A DNA stretch of 64,000 nt from an uncultured Lamprocystis sp. (lineage in GTDB: Bacteria > Pseudomonadota > Gammaproteobacteria > Chromatiales > Chromatiaceae), in assembly GCF_903933125.1 (NCBI RefSeq), contig NZ_CAIZIZ010000477.1, forward strand, positions 1-64,000, in the 5' to 3' direction. A model generated the notes under the pieces. It worked only from the letters and a program-made list of their open reading frames with translations, did no database searches and was not told the DNA's origin. The position numbers and the translations under genes are program-made. Shown here piece by piece: positions 33,163 to 44,093 of the stretch; positions within the stretch are counted from its first letter, which is position 1; every line of letters starts with the position of its first letter.

Positions 33163-35391
33163 TCAGGTTTCGCGATCCGCCCGATGATCGAGCATCCGCC
33201 CCACGACGCCGCGCAGGCGTTCGATCAATGCCGCCCGGCCACTGGCCTGGAAAAGTTCCACCAACTCGCCCACCGGCCGCAGTTGGGCGGTGGCGGCGGC
33301 CAGCAAGGCGGCCTCGTCCGCGGTCACGTGACCGCAGCGCAGGGCAGACCCCAGCCATTGACCGGTGGCCGCGGCAAGCGCGGGCAGTGCGGCCTCCAGG
33401 GTTCGATGCCCGGCGGTGAACGACTGTAACTCCGATTGCTGCTCCGATTGCTGGTTAGGGTCCGCGCTCCGCGGCGGCCTGTCGGAGCTCGGCGTTGCGG
33501 CGATCACGGCCGCGGCAACCGCGGGGTCGAGGCGGCGCAATGGACCCGGCAGCAAGACCGGGAGCCGCGCCTCCAACCGCCGACCGGCCGCGCCGAGGAA
33601 GGCCGCGCCCGACCGGCTGACGCGGCGCAGCATCACCAGCGCGTGCTCTGCGCTCGCGGCATTGCGGCTCAGACCGATCTGCACCGGACGGTAGCCGCCA
33701 GCGGACCAGAAGCCGATCAGGCCCGGGGTGGCCCCGAAACTGGTGCCCACAAGATCGATCCCCTCCCCTCGCGCGGCGCGATAGAGCCCGCGCAGCAGTC
33801 GGCGGCCCAGACCCCGACGCGCCAGCGCCGGGTGTACGGCGATGCGCACCACCCGCAGGTAACGCAGCCGCGGGGCCTCCAAGAGGCCACCATGTGCGGA
33901 AAGTGTCTGCGGCAGCAGGTGACCCCGCGGTCGGCGGCGGCCGTCATAAACCGCCTGGAGCAAGTCCGGATCGGTCATGCCCCCCTCGGCCACGGCGATC
34001 AGAGTCCCCGCGACCAACCCCTGATGGCGCAGCACCAGGACGCGCACGCCGGGTCCGTCGAGCAACAGCCGCAGATCGAGCGGCCGGGTCTGGTAATGCG
34101 CGAGGACCAGCAGCCCGAAGACCTGCCCGAGCAGGGCGTCATCCACCGCCAAGGCGTCGCGATTCAGCCGCTCGGGCTGCCAGACGGCGGGATCGATCGA
34201 TTCCAGGTCAGCGGTGCCGGCAGTGGCGGCATCCAGCAACAGGGCGCGAAACACCAGTGACTCCAAGGGGTCGTCGGCAGCCCAGCGAATCGGTGACTCC
34301 AGGGTCAGGCCCCGCCATTGGGGCGTCAAGCGGTCCAGGGTCTCGCGAAAGCGCAAGTCGAAACCGCGACCGGTCCCCTCATAACCGTGAACCGTGGTCG
34401 CGAAGACCACGCGTGAATACTGTTCCAGCAACGCGGTGAGCAGCGGGGCGGGGATGCCGGCCGCTTCATCCACCAGCAGCAGATCCGCGTCCGGATGCGC
34501 CTCACGGCAGGCATCGGGTGCCATGAAGACGATGGCCCGATCACCCGCGCGCAACCCGCTGCCGTCCGGTCGCGACCCCGACCAGGCCAGGGCCGCGTGG
34601 CGAAACAGGGCGTCGCACGACGCGCGGTTGGGTGCCGTCACCAGAATGCGATAGGGCCGCGCCGCGGCGGCCCCGGTCTCCGGAGCGAGCAATTGGGCGG
34701 CGGCGAGCCCCAGCGCCGCGCTTTTACCGCGCCCGCGGTGCGCGGTGAGCACCAGCGGCCGGCGGGGACGGCCGCGCGCGTGCCGCAGGATCGCCTCAAT
34801 GGCCTGCTGCTGATCAGGGGTCGCCGGGCGAGCGAGGTCTGCCGCCGGCCAGGGGATGTTAATCGCCGTATCGTTGACGCATGGAAACGGCGAGTCCGTG
34901 ACCGAACCGGCAGCACCGTCCCGTTGCGTGCGGATCACCACACCTGACTGGCGACTCAATACCCGGACCAGACGCGCGATGAAGCGACAGCCCGCGGCAT
35001 CGGCACCCAGCGGCCATGGTGCGATGCGCCCCGCCTGGGGATCCGGCAAACTGGGCCAGCCGTCAAACGGCGGGGTGAGGAGCACCAGGAGACGGCCCCC
35101 GCGCAGGGTCCCGGTGACTGCGCCAAAGCCGTCCGGATCAAATCCGGACCAGGCGTCATAGATGAGCAGACCACACTCACCGCCAAGCAGACGCGTCGCC
35201 GCTGCCAGAGGACGAACCCCTGGGTCGAGCGGACGATCGGAAATCCAGAACACCGGGCTCTCGCGTCCAACCGCCGCGACCACGGCGCGCGCCGCGGCAG
35301 CCGTCCAGTCCGGATCGCCACTGAGCACCAGGGTGAGTCGATGCCGCGGCGCCCGGGCTTCGACCAGCGATCGGGACGCCGGGATAGCCAC
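33163..35391 (-). CDS. tmcA: tRNA(Met) cytidine acetyltransferase TmcA
   Basis: Makes N4-acetylcytidine at the wobble base of elongator tRNA-Met using acetyl-CoA and ATP or GTP. About 742 aa: an N-terminal domain, a helicase-like ATPase (Walker A LTAHRGRGKSAALGL, Walker B LLLVDEAAGIPAPLL), a GNAT acetyltransferase (VRIAVHPALARRGLGRRLL) and a C-terminal tRNA-binding domain. The ORF is open to 35544, but most of that overlaps ccoS; I choose GTG 35391, seven bases after the ccoS stop, giving a normal N-terminus. It is probably cotranscribed with the cco assembly genes, an unusual neighbour. Confidence 0.88.
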   Translation of the reverse strand: MAIPASRSLVEARAPRHRLTLVLSGDPDWTAAAARAVVAAVGRESPVFWISDRPLDPGVRPLAAATRLLGGECGLLIYDAWSGFDPDGFGAVTGTLRGGRLLVLLTPPFDGWPSLPDPQAGRIAPWPLGADAAGCRFIARLVRVLSRQSGVVIRTQRDGAAGSVTDSPFPCVNDTAINIPWPAADLARPATPDQQQAIEAILRHARGRPRRPLVLTAHRGRGKSAALGLAAAQLLAPETGAAAARPYRILVTAPNRASCDALFRHAALAWSGSRPDGSGLRAGDRAIVFMAPDACREAHPDADLLLVDEAAGIPAPLLTALLEQYSRVVFATTVHGYEGTGRGFDLRFRETLDRLTPQWRGLTLESPIRWAADDPLESLVFRALLLDAATAGTADLESIDPAVWQPERLNRDALAVDDALLGQVFGLLVLAHYQTRPLDLRLLLDGPGVRVLVLRHQGLVAGTLIAVAEGGMTDPDLLQAVYDGRRRPRGHLLPQTLSAHGGLLEAPRLRYLRVVRIAVHPALARRGLGRRLLRGLYRAARGEGIDLVGTSFGATPGLIGFWSAGGYRPVQIGLSRNAASAEHALVMLRRVSRSGAAFLGAAGRRLEARLPVLLPGPLRRLDPAVAAAVIAATPSSDRPPRSADPNQQSEQQSELQSFTAGHRTLEAALPALAAATGQWLGSALRCGHVTADEAALLAAATAQLRPVGELVELFQASGRAALIERLRGVVGRMLDHRADRET

Positions 35392-35398
35392 GACGATG

Positions 35399-35638
35399 TT
35401 ATGACCGCGCCTTTGGTTCCTGTTCTCCGCGGATGTCGGGCGTCGGCGTGGGCGGCGGCGGTTCCGGATCGGCGTCCGGGAAGCGGCGCGGATCCACCTC
35501 GTCCTCATCCATGAGAATGCGCCGACCGTCGCCATCCAGGTCATCGAACTGGCCGTTACGAGCCGCCCAAAACAACACGGCGACCGCGACCAACCCGAGC
35601 GCGAGCATTCCGGGAATCAAACCGTAGATGACGTCCAT
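35399..35638 (-). CDS. ccoS: cbb3 oxidase assembly protein CcoS
   Basis: 79 residues; single N-terminal membrane helix (LIPGMLALGLVAVAVLFWA) followed by NGQFDDLDGDGRRILMDED, the conserved CcoS signature. It is needed to insert heme and copper into CcoN. The C-terminal 30 residues are Pro/Asp-rich and disordered. It is the last oxidase assembly gene, 102 bp after ccoI. Confidence 0.92.
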   Translation of the reverse strand: MDVIYGLIPGMLALGLVAVAVLFWAARNGQFDDLDGDGRRILMDEDEVDPRRFPDADPEPPPPTPTPDIRGEQEPKARS

Positions 35639-35740: not shown

Positions 35741-38275
35741 TTAGTTGAACATGCCGCGAATCCGCGCCGAGTTGCCGATCACCGCCAGTGAACTGATCGG
35801 CATGGCGATCGCGGCGATCAGGGGCGTGATGACGGCGGCCATCGCCAGCGGCACCATGATCAGGTTATACACGAGCGAGATGGCGATATTCTGCCGGATG
35901 GTCCGCAGCGTCCGCCGGGACAACTCGGCGGCTTCGAGTACCCGCTCCAAGGTGTCGGACATGAGGACGATATCCGCGCTGGCGATCGAGACATCGGTCC
36001 CGCTGCCCATGGCGATGCCGACGTCCGCGCGCACCAGGGCCGGCGCGTCGTTGACCCCGTCACCGACCATGGCAACCCGCTGTCCAGCGGCCTGCAACCG
36101 CGCGATCACCTGGTCCTTGTCCGCCGGCAGAACCTCGGCGATGACCTCGACATCGCCCACTGCGGCAGCGATCCGGCGAGCGACGGCCAGTCGGTCACCG
36201 GTCAGCAGGGTCACCCGGATACCCTGGGCGCGCATCCGCCCGACGACCTCGGCCGCCCCCGGCCGCAGCCGATCCTCGGTGGCCAGGACCAGGGTTCCCA
36301 GACCCGCGACCGCGCAGTGAATCAGACCGGCGTCCGCCAGCCAGTTCAGGTCATTCGTGCCATCGTCGACCGGGCTCGCCCCAAGACCCTGCCGGTCCAG
36401 CCACTCGGCGGTGCCGACCGCCACCAGGACCCCGGCGACGTGACCGCGGATACCCTGACCGGGGACCACCTCGACCGCAGCGCAGTGAATCCCATCGAGC
36501 CCGATTTCGGCACGCGCGCACAGGTCCAGTACGGCCGCCGCCGCCGGATGCTCGGAGAGTCGCTCCAGGGCGCCGACCTGCCGCAACAGCGACCGCTGCG
36601 CGGCGCTGAAATCCAGCCCGTCCGCGTCCAGCCGCCACCACGGACTGGAACCAACCCGCCACCCGGTCACCTCAGGCCGCCCCAACGTCAGGGTACCGGT
36701 CTTGTCGAAAACGAAGTGATCGATGTCCGACAAGCGCTCCAGCACGGCGCCGTTCTTGACCAGGATACCGCGTGCGGCGCCCAGACCGGAGGCCACGGCC
36801 ACCGCCATCGGGGTCGCCATGCCGAAGGCGCAAGGACAGGTGATGATCAACACCGAGGTCCCGGCCATGAGGGCGATCTCGATGCCCACGCCGACCCAGA
36901 GGATGAAAGTCAGAGCGCCGAGCCCCAGGGTGAGCGCGACGAACCAGGGCACGATGCGGTCGGCCAAACGCTGGATGGGCGCACGGCTGGACTGGGCATC
37001 CTCCACCAGACGGATGATGCGCCCCAGGGCAGTGTCGCGGAGCGTCGCCGTGGCGCACACCCGCAAGACCCCGGCGCGATTGATGGTGCCGGCGGACACC
37101 GCGGCACCCGCCGTTTTGGGCACCGGCCGGGACTCCCCGGTCAACATGGACTCATCGACCTCGCTGGTGCCGTCGATGACCTCCCCGTCCACCGGCACCC
37201 GCTCACCGGGCCGGACCAGCACCAGATCCCCCAGCGCGACCGAGCGCAGCGGGACCACGCTCTCGGTCCCGTCGCGCACGACCGTCGCCACCTTGGGCTG
37301 AAGGTCCAGCAGTCGCTGGGTCGAGGCCACCGCCTCGCGCTTGGACAGACCCTCCAGAAAGCGCCCAACCAGGATCACGAACAGGAAGTTGACCACCGTG
37401 TCCCAGTAGACCTCGCCGGTGCGGGTGCCGCTGACTGTCACGTAGCATGAATAGCACCAGGTGATCGTGGCCCCGACGGCGATCGGCAGATCCATGCTGA
37501 GGTGCCCGGAGCGCAGCCCCCGCCAGGCACCCTGGTAGAAAGGATAGCCCGAGTAGAGGAGCGTGGGAGTGGCGAGCAGCAGACCGATCCAGTGAAAGAG
37601 CCCGCGAAACTCGCCCTGATCCGCGCCGCTGTACAGCGCGATGGAGATCCACAGCAGGTTCATCATCGCGAACCCGGCCCAGGCCATGCGATAGAGCAGA
37701 TTCCGGCCCTGACGCCGCAGAGCACCCTCGGCCGACTCCGGATCGAAGGGCACCGCAGCATAGCCGATCGCACCCAGGCGCCCCAGAATGCGCGAGAGTT
37801 GGATGCGCCCGTTGTCCCAGCGCACGCGCAGCCGCCGCCCGGTCAGATTGACCCGCGCCTCTTCCACCCCCGGCAGCGTCTTGAGCCCGTTCTCGATCAG
37901 CCAGACACAGGCGGCGCAGTGGATCCCTTCCACCAGCAGATTGATCTCCCGATCCGCGCGGGCGGTGTCGACAAACTCCTCCTGCACCGCATCCAGATCA
38001 TAGAGCGCCAAATCCCGCGGCAACTCCGGCGGCGGACCCAGCGGCTCACCCGCGGTGGTGCGGCGATAGAAGCCCTCCAGTCCGGCGGCATGGATCGCCT
38101 CGCAGACCGCCTTACAGCCGGTACAGCAAAACGCCTGAGCGTGGCCGCGGATGACGGCGTGCGCATCCGTTGCCGGATTCAGCGGTAAACCGCAGTGAAA
38201 GCACCCGGTCCGAGACGCGTCGTCAGGCGACTGGAGCGCAATCCCGGCTGCCGTAACCGAGACCGGATCGGACAC
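35741..38275 (-). CDS. ccoI: Copper-transporting P-type ATPase CcoI (FixI)
   Basis: 844-residue P1B copper ATPase that supplies copper for the cbb3 oxidase. A Cys-rich N-terminus (CFHCGLPL) precedes a heavy-metal domain (EGIHCAACVWLIENGL); then come eight membrane helices with the CPC motif in IITCPCAFGMATPM, the phosphorylation site DKTGTLTLG and the hinge GDGVNDAPAL. Start is GTG 38275; a weak GGGGGT site lies upstream. Order ccoG-H-I-S is standard. Confidence 0.93.
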   Translation of the reverse strand: MSDPVSVTAAGIALQSPDDASRTGCFHCGLPLNPATDAHAVIRGHAQAFCCTGCKAVCEAIHAAGLEGFYRRTTAGEPLGPPPELPRDLALYDLDAVQEEFVDTARADREINLLVEGIHCAACVWLIENGLKTLPGVEEARVNLTGRRLRVRWDNGRIQLSRILGRLGAIGYAAVPFDPESAEGALRRQGRNLLYRMAWAGFAMMNLLWISIALYSGADQGEFRGLFHWIGLLLATPTLLYSGYPFYQGAWRGLRSGHLSMDLPIAVGATITWCYSCYVTVSGTRTGEVYWDTVVNFLFVILVGRFLEGLSKREAVASTQRLLDLQPKVATVVRDGTESVVPLRSVALGDLVLVRPGERVPVDGEVIDGTSEVDESMLTGESRPVPKTAGAAVSAGTINRAGVLRVCATATLRDTALGRIIRLVEDAQSSRAPIQRLADRIVPWFVALTLGLGALTFILWVGVGIEIALMAGTSVLIITCPCAFGMATPMAVAVASGLGAARGILVKNGAVLERLSDIDHFVFDKTGTLTLGRPEVTGWRVGSSPWWRLDADGLDFSAAQRSLLRQVGALERLSEHPAAAAVLDLCARAEIGLDGIHCAAVEVVPGQGIRGHVAGVLVAVGTAEWLDRQGLGASPVDDGTNDLNWLADAGLIHCAVAGLGTLVLATEDRLRPGAAEVVGRMRAQGIRVTLLTGDRLAVARRIAAAVGDVEVIAEVLPADKDQVIARLQAAGQRVAMVGDGVNDAPALVRADVGIAMGSGTDVSIASADIVLMSDTLERVLEAAELSRRTLRTIRQNIAISLVYNLIMVPLAMAAVITPLIAAIAMPISSLAVIGNSARIRGMFN

Positions 38276-38312: not shown

Positions 38313-38840
38313 CTAGTTTTCCGGGCGATCGGGACGGGTCACGATGATCGCATCGCCGGTGGTGAACTCATCCTCGCCCTGGCGCACGGCAATCAGGCCG
38401 TCCCAGGCGCCGAACAGCGGAAACACGACCTGGGCCGCGTAGCGTCCCGGCCCCTCGGCCGTCATCGGCGCCGAAAAGTCCCGCGACTTGTCCGAGGGCC
38501 GGTAGGCGAAGAAGGTGACCTCATCGGGCGTCACCGGCTGACCGACCTTGTCCACCAGGACAACCCGGATGGTCGCAGGCTCCCCCGGCCTGAGGTCGTC
38601 GGGAAAGTCCGTGCGCATGGTCCAGCCCGGGTCTTTCGCCAGACGGGAGACCAGCGTCTGTTCATAGTGCTGCCCACGATTGTAAAAGTCTTCACTGACC
38701 AGGCCCGGATTGGTCGAGACGGCCAAATAGACCATGGTCAGATTGACCCCCAACACCACAACGATCAGGCCGATCCAGCCAAGGACCCACGGATTGCGCC
38801 AGGGCGAATTGGACCTGTTGGCCGTTACGGATGACTGCAT
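38313..38840 (-). CDS. ccoH: cbb3 oxidase assembly protein CcoH (FixH)
   Basis: About 175 residues with one N-terminal membrane helix (WVLGWIGLIVVVLGVNLTMVYLA) and a periplasmic domain containing the FixH motif SEDFYNRGQHYEQ. It works with CcoI and CcoG in oxidase maturation. The ORF begins at GTG 38849, but that lies right against an AGGAGAG site; ATG 38840 has the correct spacing and is preferred. Confidence 0.9.
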   Translation of the reverse strand: MQSSVTANRSNSPWRNPWVLGWIGLIVVVLGVNLTMVYLAVSTNPGLVSEDFYNRGQHYEQTLVSRLAKDPGWTMRTDFPDDLRPGEPATIRVVLVDKVGQPVTPDEVTFFAYRPSDKSRDFSAPMTAEGPGRYAAQVVFPLFGAWDGLIAVRQGEDEFTTGDAIIVTRPDRPEN

Positions 38841-38886: not shown

Positions 38887-40320
38887 TCAGCGGTCCGGCC
38901 CGACAAAGACGCTGGTCCGCTCGGACTCGACCACCAGACCGTCCGACCGGGTCGCCTCCACCCGGAAGCGGATCGGCTCCTGCGCCTTTTTCAGATGGCG
39001 CTTCGGCACCTTGACGAAGACCATCGCGGGCGTCACCCCGCCGGCGTGAATGACCACCGGCGCTTCGGCCCCGATTAGTTTCAAGCCCTCCGGCCCAGAG
39101 ACACTGATTCGCACCGCAAGTTCCTCCGGCATCTTATTGAGCATCTTGAGTGTGTATTTATTCTGGATCGAGCCGTCACTCAAGGTGACGAACAGCGGGG
39201 CACGCTCATGCAGCACCTTGAGATCAATGGCATCCAGCGCGGACATCCCGTAGAAGATGCCGGACAGGGCGACCGCCAGGATGGTCGCATAGACCCAGAC
39301 CCGCGGACGCTTCAGCAGCGCCTTGGGGGCCTGTCCGGCGAACTCGTCCAGCGAGGCGTACCGGATGAGACCGCGCGGCCGGCCCACTTTCTCCATCACC
39401 TCGTCGCACGCGTCGATGCACAGGGCGCAGGTGATGCAGCCCTCCTGCTGCCCCTGACGGATATCGATGCCGGTCGGGCAAACCGCGACACACTGATTGC
39501 AGTCGACGCAGTCGCCGTTGGTCCGGGAGGCCGCCGTCTCGCCCTTGTTGACCCTGCCGCGCGGTTCACCGCGGCGCTCGTCATAGGTAGGGACAATGGT
39601 CGTCTTGTCGAGCATGACCCCTTGAATGCGGGCGTAGGGACAGAGCCAGAAACAGGTCTGTTCGCGCAGGTAGCCGGCCAGGACGTAGGTGCCGACCGTG
39701 AACAGCGCGACTGAGATATAGGCCGCGCTGTTCGCCTCCCCGAGGAAAAACGCACCCCACAGACCGGGGGCATCGGTGAACCAGGCCACGAAGCTGAAAC
39801 CGGTAAAGAAGCCGATCAGAATCCACAACAGATGCTTGGTGAGCTTGGTGCGCACCTTCGCGCGACTCCAAGGCTCCTGATCGAGCTTGCGCCGCTGGGG
39901 CGGTGTTCCCTCCAGCCGCTCCTCGATCCAGGTGAAAATATCGGTCCACACCGTCTGAAAGCAGAAGAAGCCGCACCACACACGCCCGACCAAGGCCGTC
40001 GCCACCGCGAGCAAGATCGCGAAAAAGAGCAACAGCAGCGACAGCATCCAGAAATCCTGGGGCAGGATGGTCACGCCGAAGAGGTGATACTGACGGTTAG
40101 GGATATCGAACAAAACCGCCTGGCGCCCGTCCCAACGCAGATAGGGACCCAGAAAGAAGATCAGCCAGACGCTCGCCGTCACCCACTTGATGGTGCGCCA
40201 GCGCCCACGGATGCGCTTGGCATGGATGGTCTCGCCGCCGGTATTGACGTGCCAGTGCTCGGCCTCGTCGTAAAGCGCGTCGACAGCGGCCTGATGCTGA
40301 CGTGTGTCACTCATACTCAC
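38887..40320 (-). CDS. ccoG: cbb3 oxidase accessory protein CcoG
   Basis: 477-residue polyferredoxin-like membrane protein involved in copper reduction for oxidase assembly. Several helices in the first 250 residues hold the FFCFQTVWTD and CFWLCPYARIQG segments; two [4Fe-4S] ferredoxin motifs follow (CVDCNQCVAVCPTGID and CITCALCIDACDEV), then another helix and an Ig-like periplasmic C-terminus. An AGGAG site precedes the start. It is separated from the oxidase structural genes by a terminator, so it may have its own promoter. Confidence 0.93.
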   Translation of the reverse strand: MSMSDTRQHQAAVDALYDEAEHWHVNTGGETIHAKRIRGRWRTIKWVTASVWLIFFLGPYLRWDGRQAVLFDIPNRQYHLFGVTILPQDFWMLSLLLLFFAILLAVATALVGRVWCGFFCFQTVWTDIFTWIEERLEGTPPQRRKLDQEPWSRAKVRTKLTKHLLWILIGFFTGFSFVAWFTDAPGLWGAFFLGEANSAAYISVALFTVGTYVLAGYLREQTCFWLCPYARIQGVMLDKTTIVPTYDERRGEPRGRVNKGETAASRTNGDCVDCNQCVAVCPTGIDIRQGQQEGCITCALCIDACDEVMEKVGRPRGLIRYASLDEFAGQAPKALLKRPRVWVYATILAVALSGIFYGMSALDAIDLKVLHERAPLFVTLSDGSIQNKYTLKMLNKMPEELAVRISVSGPEGLKLIGAEAPVVIHAGGVTPAMVFVKVPKRHLKKAQEPIRFRVEATRSDGLVVESERTSVFVGPDR

Positions 40321-40490: not shown

Positions 40491-40512
40491 AAAAAGGGGG
40501 ACATCGGCCCCC
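40491..40512 (-). terminator. Rho-independent terminator after the oxidase operon
   Basis: Read on the minus strand: GGGGG, a short loop, CCCCC and then TTTTT, 25 bp after the stop of the small membrane gene at 40537. It separates ccoNOQP and the small gene from ccoG. Confidence 0.7.
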
Positions 40513-40536
40513 GGATAGGGTATCGCCGGAGCGCCG

Positions 40537-40692
40537 CTAGGGCTTCTGATGCTTATGGGCCGCGGCATCCTGCTTGATAAGTGCCGCGACCTTGAAGGCC
40601 AGAAAGGTGATGATGACGACGGCCATCACGACCATCAGGATGGACATCCAGGCGACCGGATCCCAATTCATCAGGTTGGAAACAACATTCAT
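40537..40692 (-). CDS. Small single-helix membrane protein, 51 aa, last gene of ccoNOQP operon
   Basis: This gene is missing from the ORF track because of its size. ATG 40692 has a strong GAGGGGAG site with good spacing; the product begins MNVVSNLMNWDPVAWM, has one hydrophobic helix (MVVMAVVIITFLAFKVAAL) and a Lys/His-rich tail. It follows ccoP by about 85 bp and is followed by the operon terminator. It resembles CcoQ in layout, but a CcoQ gene is already present, so it may be a second small subunit or assembly factor. Family not recognised. Confidence 0.7.
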   Translation of the reverse strand: MNVVSNLMNWDPVAWMSILMVVMAVVIITFLAFKVAALIKQDAAAHKHQKP

Positions 40693-40776
40693 GACAACTC
40701 CCCTCTCCGCGCTGTATGGCCGGCGGACGGCGCTGCTGTTGCCGCCCGCCGGAGTCGTCCACGCCGCCGACTCGAC

Positions 40777-41691
40777 CTATTGGCCGCCACCGAACTCGTG
40801 GACATAGACGACGAGCTTCTTGATTTCCTCAGGCCCCAACTTCGCCACACCACCACGGGTCGCGTCCGGCCCCCAAACCGGCATCACGGCATCGCGCGTC
40901 CCCGGAACATTGGGCTGATTGACCCCGTAGAGAATCGTGTGTTTGGCACTCTCGAAGCCGCCCGGCTCGAAGCGCCAGATCCCGTCCGCGAGATTGGCTG
41001 CACCGACCGAAACGAACTCACCGTTCGGCAGGTCGACCACGTGTCCGTTCGCCTTCTCGCCATGGCAGGCGGTGCAGCCCTTGCTCTTGAACAACGCCCA
41101 ACCCTCCGGGCTCCCACCGGCCCCGGCCGTCTCGTTCATCTGCACGGCCCAATTGGCTAGGGTGTCCACCTCGACCGGGGCAAGGATCTTCTCGTGGGCC
41201 GTCATCACCCCCTTGCGCCCGCCCGCGATGGATTCCTGGATCTTGGCCGTGGTGCCGCCGTACAGCCAGTCGTCATCAGCCAGGACCGGAAAACCGGGAT
41301 TACCCGCCCCGCCGCTGCCGTGACAGGCCCGGCAGTTATCGCCAAACAGCACCTTGGCGGAAGCCAGGGTGTATTCCTTGAGCCCGGGGTCGGCGATGAT
41401 CTGATCGGCCGTCATCCCTGCCAGCTTTTCTTCGAACTGGGCGCGCTTCGCCGTGATCTGCGCCACGCCCTCGGCATACTCCTTCATCTGGCTCCAGCCG
41501 AGCACGCCTTGGGTCGGCTCCTGACCGATCGGCCACATCGGGTAGAGAATCGCATAGCCGATCCAGAAGGCGACGGAGGCCCAGAACGCCAGCATCCACC
41601 ACCGCGGCGGCGGGTTCTTCAACTCACGCAGGTTGTCGTCCCAGACATGCCCCGTGTTGTTTTCGCCGGGGAAGGGGTTATTTTCCGCCAT
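40777..41691 (-). CDS. ccoP: cbb3 oxidase diheme subunit CcoP
   Basis: 304 residues: N-terminal membrane helix (about 31-53), then two cytochrome c domains with heme sites CRACH (120-124) and CTACH (206-210). CcoP receives electrons from soluble cytochromes and passes them to CcoO/CcoN. The conserved PVLADDDWLYGG segment lies between the hemes. It overlaps ccoQ by 14 bp. Confidence 0.95.
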   Translation of the reverse strand: MAENNPFPGENNTGHVWDDNLRELKNPPPRWWMLAFWASVAFWIGYAILYPMWPIGQEPTQGVLGWSQMKEYAEGVAQITAKRAQFEEKLAGMTADQIIADPGLKEYTLASAKVLFGDNCRACHGSGGAGNPGFPVLADDDWLYGGTTAKIQESIAGGRKGVMTAHEKILAPVEVDTLANWAVQMNETAGAGGSPEGWALFKSKGCTACHGEKANGHVVDLPNGEFVSVGAANLADGIWRFEPGGFESAKHTILYGVNQPNVPGTRDAVMPVWGPDATRGGVAKLGPEEIKKLVVYVHEFGGGQ

Positions 41692-41851
41692 CTTTGTCTC
41701 CGCTGAACTCGTTGTCCTCTTCGAACGGGATGTACTTGCGGGCTTCGAGCCGCTCCCGGTTCTTGGGACGGAATACCTGGAAGTAGGCCACGACCATGAG
41801 CAGGAAGATGACGACGGTCAGGATCATGCCGATCCAGTCGTTGGTCGTCAT
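41678..41851 (-). CDS. ccoQ: cbb3 oxidase subunit CcoQ
   Basis: 57 residues from ATG 41851: one membrane helix (GMILTVVIFLLMVVAYFQVF) followed by RPKNRERLEARKYIPFEED, the CcoQ pattern. It stabilises CcoP binding to the core. An alternative start is GTG 41893, overlapping the end of ccoO and preceded by GAGGCGAAGG, which would add 14 residues; I cannot decide between them by sequence alone. Confidence 0.85.
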   Translation of the reverse strand: MTTNDWIGMILTVVIFLLMVVAYFQVFRPKNRERLEARKYIPFEEDNEFSGDKDGGK

Positions 41852-41885
41852 CGCCTGCCAGTCGGTATGAAAATACTCGCTGAGG

Positions 41886-42632
41886 CTATTCACGATAGGC
41901 CTTCGCCTCATCCAGCTTGGCCATGGTACCAAGCACCTGGAGGTAGGTCACCAGCGCATCCATCTCAGTCTTTCCTTTGACGACCTCCGGCGCTTTCTCG
42001 ATGTCGGCGTCCGCATAGGGAACGCCGATGAGTCGCAGGCCGCTCATATGCCTGCGCATCCGCTTGCCATTGACATAGCTTTCATCCAGCCAGGGATAGG
42101 CAGGCATCACCGACTCCGGCACCAGGTTCTGGGGCCGGCGCAAATGCTGGCGGTGCCAGTCGTTCGAATACTTGCCGCCCACCCGCGCGAGATCCGGGCC
42201 AGTGCGCTTGGAACCCCACTGCATCGGGTGATCGAACATCGACTCCGAGGCCAGCGAGTAGTGACCGTAACGCTCCTTCTCATCACGGAACGGCCGCACC
42301 ATCTGCGAATGACAAAGGTAACAGCCCTCACGCTGGTAGATGTCCCGGCCGGCCAATTCCAGTGCGGTGTAGGGACGGACACCATCGCCCGGCTGCCAGT
42401 TCCACACCTGCTTCCCCGCCTCATCCACGGCGACGATGGGCTCGATGCCCGCCTTAGGCCAGACGATCTCCGGGAACTTATTATGCTCCATGGTGTTCTT
42501 CATGAAGAACAGCGGCACGATCTCGACCAGACCACCGACGGCCAAGGCCAGGCCGAGAAAGAACAGGAGACCCCAGATGTTGATCTCCATCCATTCCTGA
42601 AAGCTCTTCGCTTTGACTTTGCGATCAGCCAT
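41886..42632 (-). CDS. ccoO: cbb3 oxidase monoheme subunit CcoO
   Basis: 248 residues; N-terminal membrane helix (19-43) and one cytochrome c site CYLCH at 104-108 in the conserved [15 protein letters not shown]. Compared with the ~200-residue Pseudomonas form, there is an insert of about 30 residues between the helix and [13 protein letters not shown]. The gene is 27 bp after ccoN with a GGAG site. Confidence 0.95.
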
Positions 42633-42659: not shown

Positions 42660-44093
42660 TCAGGCGGGCGCCGGAACGCTGCGCGCCCGCACCAGGCTGC
42701 CGTCAGCGGCCGACTTGCGCAGGGTCATCAACACGTTGAACAGCATCACGATCGCACCGGCCAGGAAAATGGCGCCGCCGATGGCCCGCATCGCGTAGTA
42801 GGGGTGCATGGCATCCACCGATTCGACGAAGGTATAGGCCAAGGTGCCGTACTCATCATAGGCGCGCCACATCAGCCCCTGCATGATGCCGGACACCCAC
42901 ATGGCGACGATATACACCACGGTGCCAATGGTCGCGGTCCAGAAGTGGAAGTTGACCAGCCGCTCGGAAAACATCTCGGTGTGGAACAGGCGCGGCATCA
43001 GGTGATAGATAGCGCCGATGGAGATACCGGCCACCCAGCCGAGCGCGCCGGAGTGAACATGACCGATGGTCCAGTCGGTGTAGTGCGACAGTGCGTTGAC
43101 CGTCTTGAGTGCCATAACCGGGCCTTCGAAAGTGGACATGGCGTAGAAGGCCAGGGCCATGATCAGGAAGCGCAGGACATAGTCGGTGCGCAGGCGGTCC
43201 CAGGCGCCGGACAGTGTCATCATGCCGTTCACCGCGCCGCCCCAGGAGGGGATGATCATCGCGATCGAGACCGCCGCTCCCAGAGACCCGGTCCAATCAG
43301 GCAGCGCGGTATACTGAAGGTGATGGGCGCCAAGCCAGACATAGCCGAACATCAAGGCCCAGAAGTGGATGACCGAGAGTCGGTAGGAGTAGATCGGGCG
43401 GCCGGCCTGCTTCGGCACGAAGTAATACATGATCCCGAGGAAGCCGGCAGTCAGATAAAAGCCGACGGCATTATGACCCCACCACCACTGGATCATGGCG
43501 TCCTGGACACCGGAGAACAGCGAGTAGGATTTGAACAACCCGACCGGGATAGCCAGGCTGTTGACCACGTGCAGATAGACGATCATCACCATCATGCCGA
43601 GGAAGAACCAATTCGACACATAGATGTGCGAGGTCTTGCGTACCGCGATGGTCATGATGAAATTGAAGGTGAACGAGAGCCAGACGACGGCGATCAGGAT
43701 ATCGATCGGCCATTCAAGTTCGGCGTATTCCTTGGACTCGGTGAGACCCAGCGGGAGGGTGATGACGGCCAGCAGGATCACGGTGTTCCAGCCCCAGAAG
43801 ACGAACCAGGCGAGCTTGTCGCTCCACAGACGCACACCGCACGTACGCTGCACGGTGTAAAAAGCGGTCGCCATCAGCGTACAGCCGCCGAAGGCGAAGA
43901 TGACCGCGTTGGTATGGACCGGACGCAACCGTCCGAACGAGATGTAGGGACTGTCGAAGTTGAGGAACGGCCACGCCAGTTCCGAGGCAATATAGACACC
44001 GACCGAGGCACCGACCACCAAGTAGACGGCTGCCATGACGGTGAACCAGCGTACAACATCGAAGTTGTACTTCTGCTCCAATCCGGATTCCAT
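42660..44093 (-). CDS. ccoN: cbb3 oxidase catalytic subunit CcoN
   Basis: Heme-copper oxidase subunit I of the C family, 477 residues with about 12 membrane helices; reduces O2 to water at high affinity. The copper-B histidine helix is [15 protein letters not shown], and further heme-ligand histidines are in YLHVVNSL and [14 protein letters not shown]. First gene of the operon, with a GGAGGG site just before ATG. The upstream gap holds a degenerate FNR-like box. Confidence 0.97.

Follow-up and report, generated by a model that had tools for sequence, protein, structure and literature searches.

The window analysed here is a stretch of 64,000 nucleotides, on the minus strand of which the genes of a cbb3 oxidase, a high-affinity enzyme of respiration at very low oxygen, lie in the order ccoN, ccoO, ccoQ, ccoP, a small open reading frame (ORF), a terminator-like hairpin, ccoG, ccoH, ccoI and ccoS. 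We assigned ccoN (42660–44093), ccoO (41886–42632) and ccoP (40777–41691), the gene of the di-haem subunit, by their matches to COX1 (2e-116), FixO (9e-75) and FixP_N (6.3e-19), respectively, and ccoQ (41678–41896) by its position and the operon order together with a FixQ match (1.6e-5) that is below Pfam's cut-off. Beyond the terminator are the assembly gene ccoG (38887–40314; FixG_C 6.6e-28, Fer4_18 1.1e-38), ccoH (38313–38840; FixH 6.1e-29), an ORF for a ccoI-like P-type ATPase (35741–38275), which was recognised by position and sequence and is also conserved as a neighbour in loci L031–L034, and ccoS (35399–35638; FixS 6.7e-19). The longest reading of a further ORF of 793 aa on the same strand (33163–35544) overlaps ccoS out of frame, and its listed start is therefore probably too far upstream.

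The small ORF, 84 nt behind the end of ccoP at 40777, runs from ATG to TAG on the minus strand (40537–40692, stop codon included) and encodes the 51-aa protein MNVVSNLMNWDPVAWMSILMVVMAVVIITFLAFKVAALIKQDAAAHKHQKP, with a mass of 5693 Da. The original prediction, made from the letters of the window, was of a 51-residue membrane protein with one helix behind ccoP, and this is what we found: the Kyte-Doolittle value of 2.75 over residues 18–36 indicates a single transmembrane helix, and the AlphaFold model contains a helix at residues 12–47 (mean pLDDT 80.7). The ATG is preceded by GAGAGGGGAGTTGTC, and a stretch resembling a ribosome binding site, GAGAGGGGAG, is located at 40698–40707 (minus strand), about 5 nt before the start codon. 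This site had been called strong; it is purine-rich and usable, and a site is also kept in relatives, but it is an imperfect AGGAGG. The terminator expected behind the ORF was detected by a pattern scan as a hairpin with a T-run (40495–40512, minus strand), 24 nt after the stop codon; 0.5 such sites are expected from shuffles, and the 66-nt terminator stretch as a whole has an unremarkable folding energy (z −0.44).

The gene is present as a single copy in the source genome, and the protein of the nearest named relative, Lamprocystis purpurea DSM 4197, is 90% identical. Comparison with seven close relatives gave dN/dS values of 0.08–0.39, indicating purifying selection. Among the 253 ATG-started readings of 36–60 codons in the window, a strong transmembrane segment was combined with a ribosome site in two, the other one being located elsewhere. 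We then counted the family in whole genomes, searched in six frames and blind to position. A single-sequence search detected it in 55 of the 116 genomes of the host's family, a few of the weakest matches being probably due to chance, and a 27-row profile search detected it in 119 of the 210 genomes of the order. In every one of the first 34 loci the gene was situated between ccoP and ccoG, the placement for L013 being taken from the family-wide single-sequence search. The class-wide search (41-row profile, E ≤ 1e-5) yielded 40 places, 36 of them between ccoP and ccoG; the remaining four were one at a contig end without context (L059) and three unlinked paralogues (L242–L244). In a family of another class of the phylum (f189), seven of eight matches again fell in the ccoP–ccoG gap and were followed by a similar hairpin, and the eighth, a weaker one, was just upstream of ccoN. 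Consistent with this tie to the operon, ccoP was found in 36 of the 37 genomes with the gene versus 166 of the 332 without it (Fisher p 2e-9). Lack of conservation of the frame in relatives had been named beforehand as the refuting result. The frame turned out to be conserved, nearly always between ccoP and ccoG, not just in the Chromatiaceae but also in many further families of the Gammaproteobacteria and in one family belonging to another class. Because it shows both constraint at the codon level and conserved synteny, the 51-aa ORF is a real gene. Two unusual forms were also seen. In L066 (~1501–1596) the member in the ccoP–ccoG gap has a total length of 96 aa and ends in a long tail rich in Lys and Arg. 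In L261 (~1501–1608), where ccoG and ccoN are divergent, an ORF for a single-helix protein of 51 aa lies between the two, immediately upstream of ccoN, and matched the family profile weakly (E 1.2e-4).

In 46 of 64 loci a terminator-like hairpin was found within 160 nt behind the stop codon of the gene, where about 1.0 is expected from shuffles preserving base composition; a terminator between ccoP and the gene was found in just 6 of the 64. Because the terminator usually follows the gene and seldom precedes it, the gene is predicted to be transcribed with the structural genes and not with ccoGHIS; it would normally be the last of the ccoNOQP transcript, closing the operon as had been proposed for the window. 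From this shared structural transcription unit we infer that a small subunit is favoured over an assembly factor.

We also built, by a quick method, a CcoP tree from the 64 carrier loci and 69 non-carrier loci. All 64 carrier loci fell within one CcoP clade (SH-aLRT 100). The non-carrier loci were picked from genomes in which the profile had no hit, and absence of the gene outside the clade is therefore partly a matter of selection; the grouping of all carriers in a single clade is unaffected by it. Six CcoP of the clade have no such gene downstream, namely L223, L225, L230, L233 and L240, which clearly lack it, and L229, which is near a contig end. The five clear cases mean that the gene can be lost and is therefore not indispensable. 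Thus, the gene marks one CcoP clade, that is, one branch of the cbb3 oxidases.

In the near family, D11, V13, S17, V21, I27, L31, K34, L38, D42 and A43 are invariant, giving the Chromatiaceae core D-x-V-x(3)-S-x(3)-V-x(5)-I-x(3)-L-x(2)-K-x(3)-L-x(3)-D-A; D11 and V13 are still invariant in the wide 41-row set. The operon copies have no conserved Cys or other metal-binding motif. When the 51-aa protein was scanned against Pfam and NCBIfam, no model reached its cut-off, and the same scans with the 27- and 41-member alignments gave scattered chance matches to transmembrane segments, none of them consistent. PDB searches returned chance hits alone. No description of the family was found in the open-access full texts searched. 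Where the genome reports of Allochromatium vinosum (PMC3368242) and Thiocapsa bogorovii (PMC10892978) deal with the cbb3 genes, an additional small gene does not come up. The unlinked second copies, L242 (3008–3112), L243 (2981–3088) and L244 (2933–3040), come from three genomes of two bacterial families. They share the signature DATAI..V.GS..VF..LG.RITRLMK.CNS, with a conserved Cys. Their surroundings contain no cco genes, and one type is close to a glmS-like gene.

Several small proteins linked to cbb3 oxidases were compared with the 51-aa protein. CcoX of Campylobacter jejuni (Cj1486c, DUF4006) is likewise a small single-helix protein encoded directly behind ccoP; it is indispensable for activity, and a supercomplex band contained it along with the oxidase (PMC8267372). 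Its gene is followed by ccoY, ccoZ and ccoH, whereas the 51-aa gene is followed by a terminator and ccoG, and we rejected CcoX/DUF4006 (PF13179) as the identity of the protein, there being no match at the locus and a sub-threshold one elsewhere in the genome. CcoQ/FixQ (PF05545) is also a small single-helix cbb3 subunit of the same operon; this identity was rejected as well, the 51-aa protein having no FixQ match and CcoQ being separately encoded, which bears out the earlier statement that the two are distinct. CcoS/FixS (PF03597), another small single-helix protein encoded with cbb3 genes, was discarded for lack of a FixS match and because the true CcoS lies in its own place in the window. 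DUF3149 (PF11346) is a single-helix protein of about 40 aa that occupies the ccoP–ccoG gap of other lineages of cbb3 oxidases (L209, L179), outside the CcoP clade of the 51-aa gene. It was rejected too: the 51-aa protein gave no hit to it up to E = 1, and it is absent from the families listed for the 27- and 41-member alignments. Different small membrane ORFs occupy this gap in other cbb3 lineages (L209, L179, L173, L196, L202, L211), among them an ORF of ~55–80 aa with a GFF.FW.....SS motif, of which one was scanned with no Pfam match.

The closest known protein is CcoM (36 aa), a cbb3 subunit of Pseudomonas stutzeri represented by chain N of 5djq (Kohlstaedt et al. 2016, as cited in PMC8267372, PMC9264385 and PMC10433244). 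The two proteins, 36 and 51 aa long, have one helix each, the same apparent topology, a start M-x-x-D-x-V and a basic (D)A/S-x-K tail, and the 51-aa family as a whole has the CcoM-type traits of one short helix, an N-terminal Asp and a basic C-terminal tail. On the other hand, the helix of CcoM is about 4 residues shorter, the CcoM genes examined have no cco genes nearby, unlike the operon-linked 51-aa gene, and the CcoP of a CcoM-bearing Pseudomonadaceae genome (L191) falls outside the carrier clade. For profile comparison a CcoM set was gathered from Pseudomonadaceae genomes (62 of 80). CcoM itself (L099–L143) matches no Pfam model, and a divergent Pseudomonadaceae form reads MFMDVVVFAG.GTVALM..FF.GLY.FV. 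In hhalign the 51-aa family profile matched the CcoM family with a probability of 89% (E 2.2e-6). A second setting gave a score of 25.2, compared with at most 22.3 for 200 column-shuffled CcoM profiles, and all 41 natural membrane windows from Cco proteins scored below it, the best being CcoQ with 17.2. Windows of the gene built on the window's own protein reached just 14.2 against CcoM, and in a single-sequence HMM test CcoM ranked no better than the top 4–11% of shuffled decoys. A scan of six carrier genomes with the CcoM profile found neither the 51-aa gene nor a separate CcoM, and a profile test against the PDB was negative for homology with chain N of 5djq. A distant homology of the 51-aa family with CcoM is plausible on these sequence comparisons, if unproven.

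The gene product had been proposed to be an additional subunit or an assembly factor of the oxidase. Our results support this pair of roles, and both the termination together with ccoNOQP and the distant profile match with CcoM favour the former; judged by sequence, the 51-aa protein probably functions as an oxidase subunit. The fuller reading, which we think has a reasonably good chance of being correct, is that the protein, made from the ccoNOQP mRNA, belongs to the oxidases of one cbb3 branch as a small integral subunit and stabilises the complex. By the positive-inside rule, the short N-terminal end with the invariant Asp would be periplasmic and the basic C-terminal tail would be cytoplasmic. 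Produced from the ccoNOQP mRNA, the protein would most likely pack its helix against CcoN/CcoP and would in this way stabilise the complex, as is done in P. stutzeri by CcoM, to which it may be distantly related. That the gene was lost several times is as expected for a stabilising rather than a catalytic part.

It is also conceivable, if unlikely, that the protein is a transient assembly factor that joins CcoNO and CcoQP or assists copper or haem loading and is absent from the finished enzyme. The gene lies just before ccoGHIS, which are known assembly genes, and CcoX offers a precedent right behind ccoP that activity depends on (PMC8267372). Against this, the gene is predicted to form one transcription unit with the structural genes, a terminator usually standing between it and ccoG, and its operon copies are devoid of conserved metal-binding motifs; even CcoX, having been detected together with the oxidase (PMC8267372), does not argue for a transient role. 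We give little credence to the protein being a second CcoQ, a duplicated and diverged FixQ that stabilises CcoP. CcoQ, which is similar in size and apparent topology, did score highest among the natural controls when profiles were compared, second to CcoM, but its 17.2 is within the range of the shuffled columns in the CcoM test, the window protein has no FixQ match, FixQ is absent from the families listed for the alignments, and CcoQ itself is present beside the gene. Slightly less credible still is a membrane microprotein outside the oxidase, such as a regulator or stress peptide, that is merely co-expressed: the unlinked paralogues in three genomes, one type near glmS, mean that the fold can work outside the operon, but the tight synteny over two classes and the confinement to one CcoP clade speak against it for the operon gene. 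Finally, the view that the ORF is no gene and stands open by chance in front of a terminator, to which its short length and the unremarkable folding energy might point, is refuted by the frame conservation, the dN/dS values and the synteny, and we attach virtually no weight to it.

Knowledge of the small subunits of cbb3 oxidases is patchy, since proteins of this length escape routine annotation and bottom-up proteomics. The present family is conserved, has no Pfam or NCBIfam model and is encoded in the structural operon of a whole branch of these oxidases, which makes it a definite candidate for a search in purified complexes and in structures. Tentatively, and with more doubt than for the subunit role itself, we suggest that the 51-aa protein could be the clade-defining fifth subunit of a large cbb3 branch in at least two classes, that the Pseudomonas CcoM could derive, by relocation and shortening, from an operon gene ancestral to the two, and that both, perhaps together with CcoQ, could form one superfamily of small cbb3 subunits. 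Through the 51-aa family, the Pseudomonas CcoM with its unlinked gene may be traced to an ancestor encoded in the operon, and the family probably represents an overlooked small subunit that accompanies one whole branch of the cbb3 oxidases.
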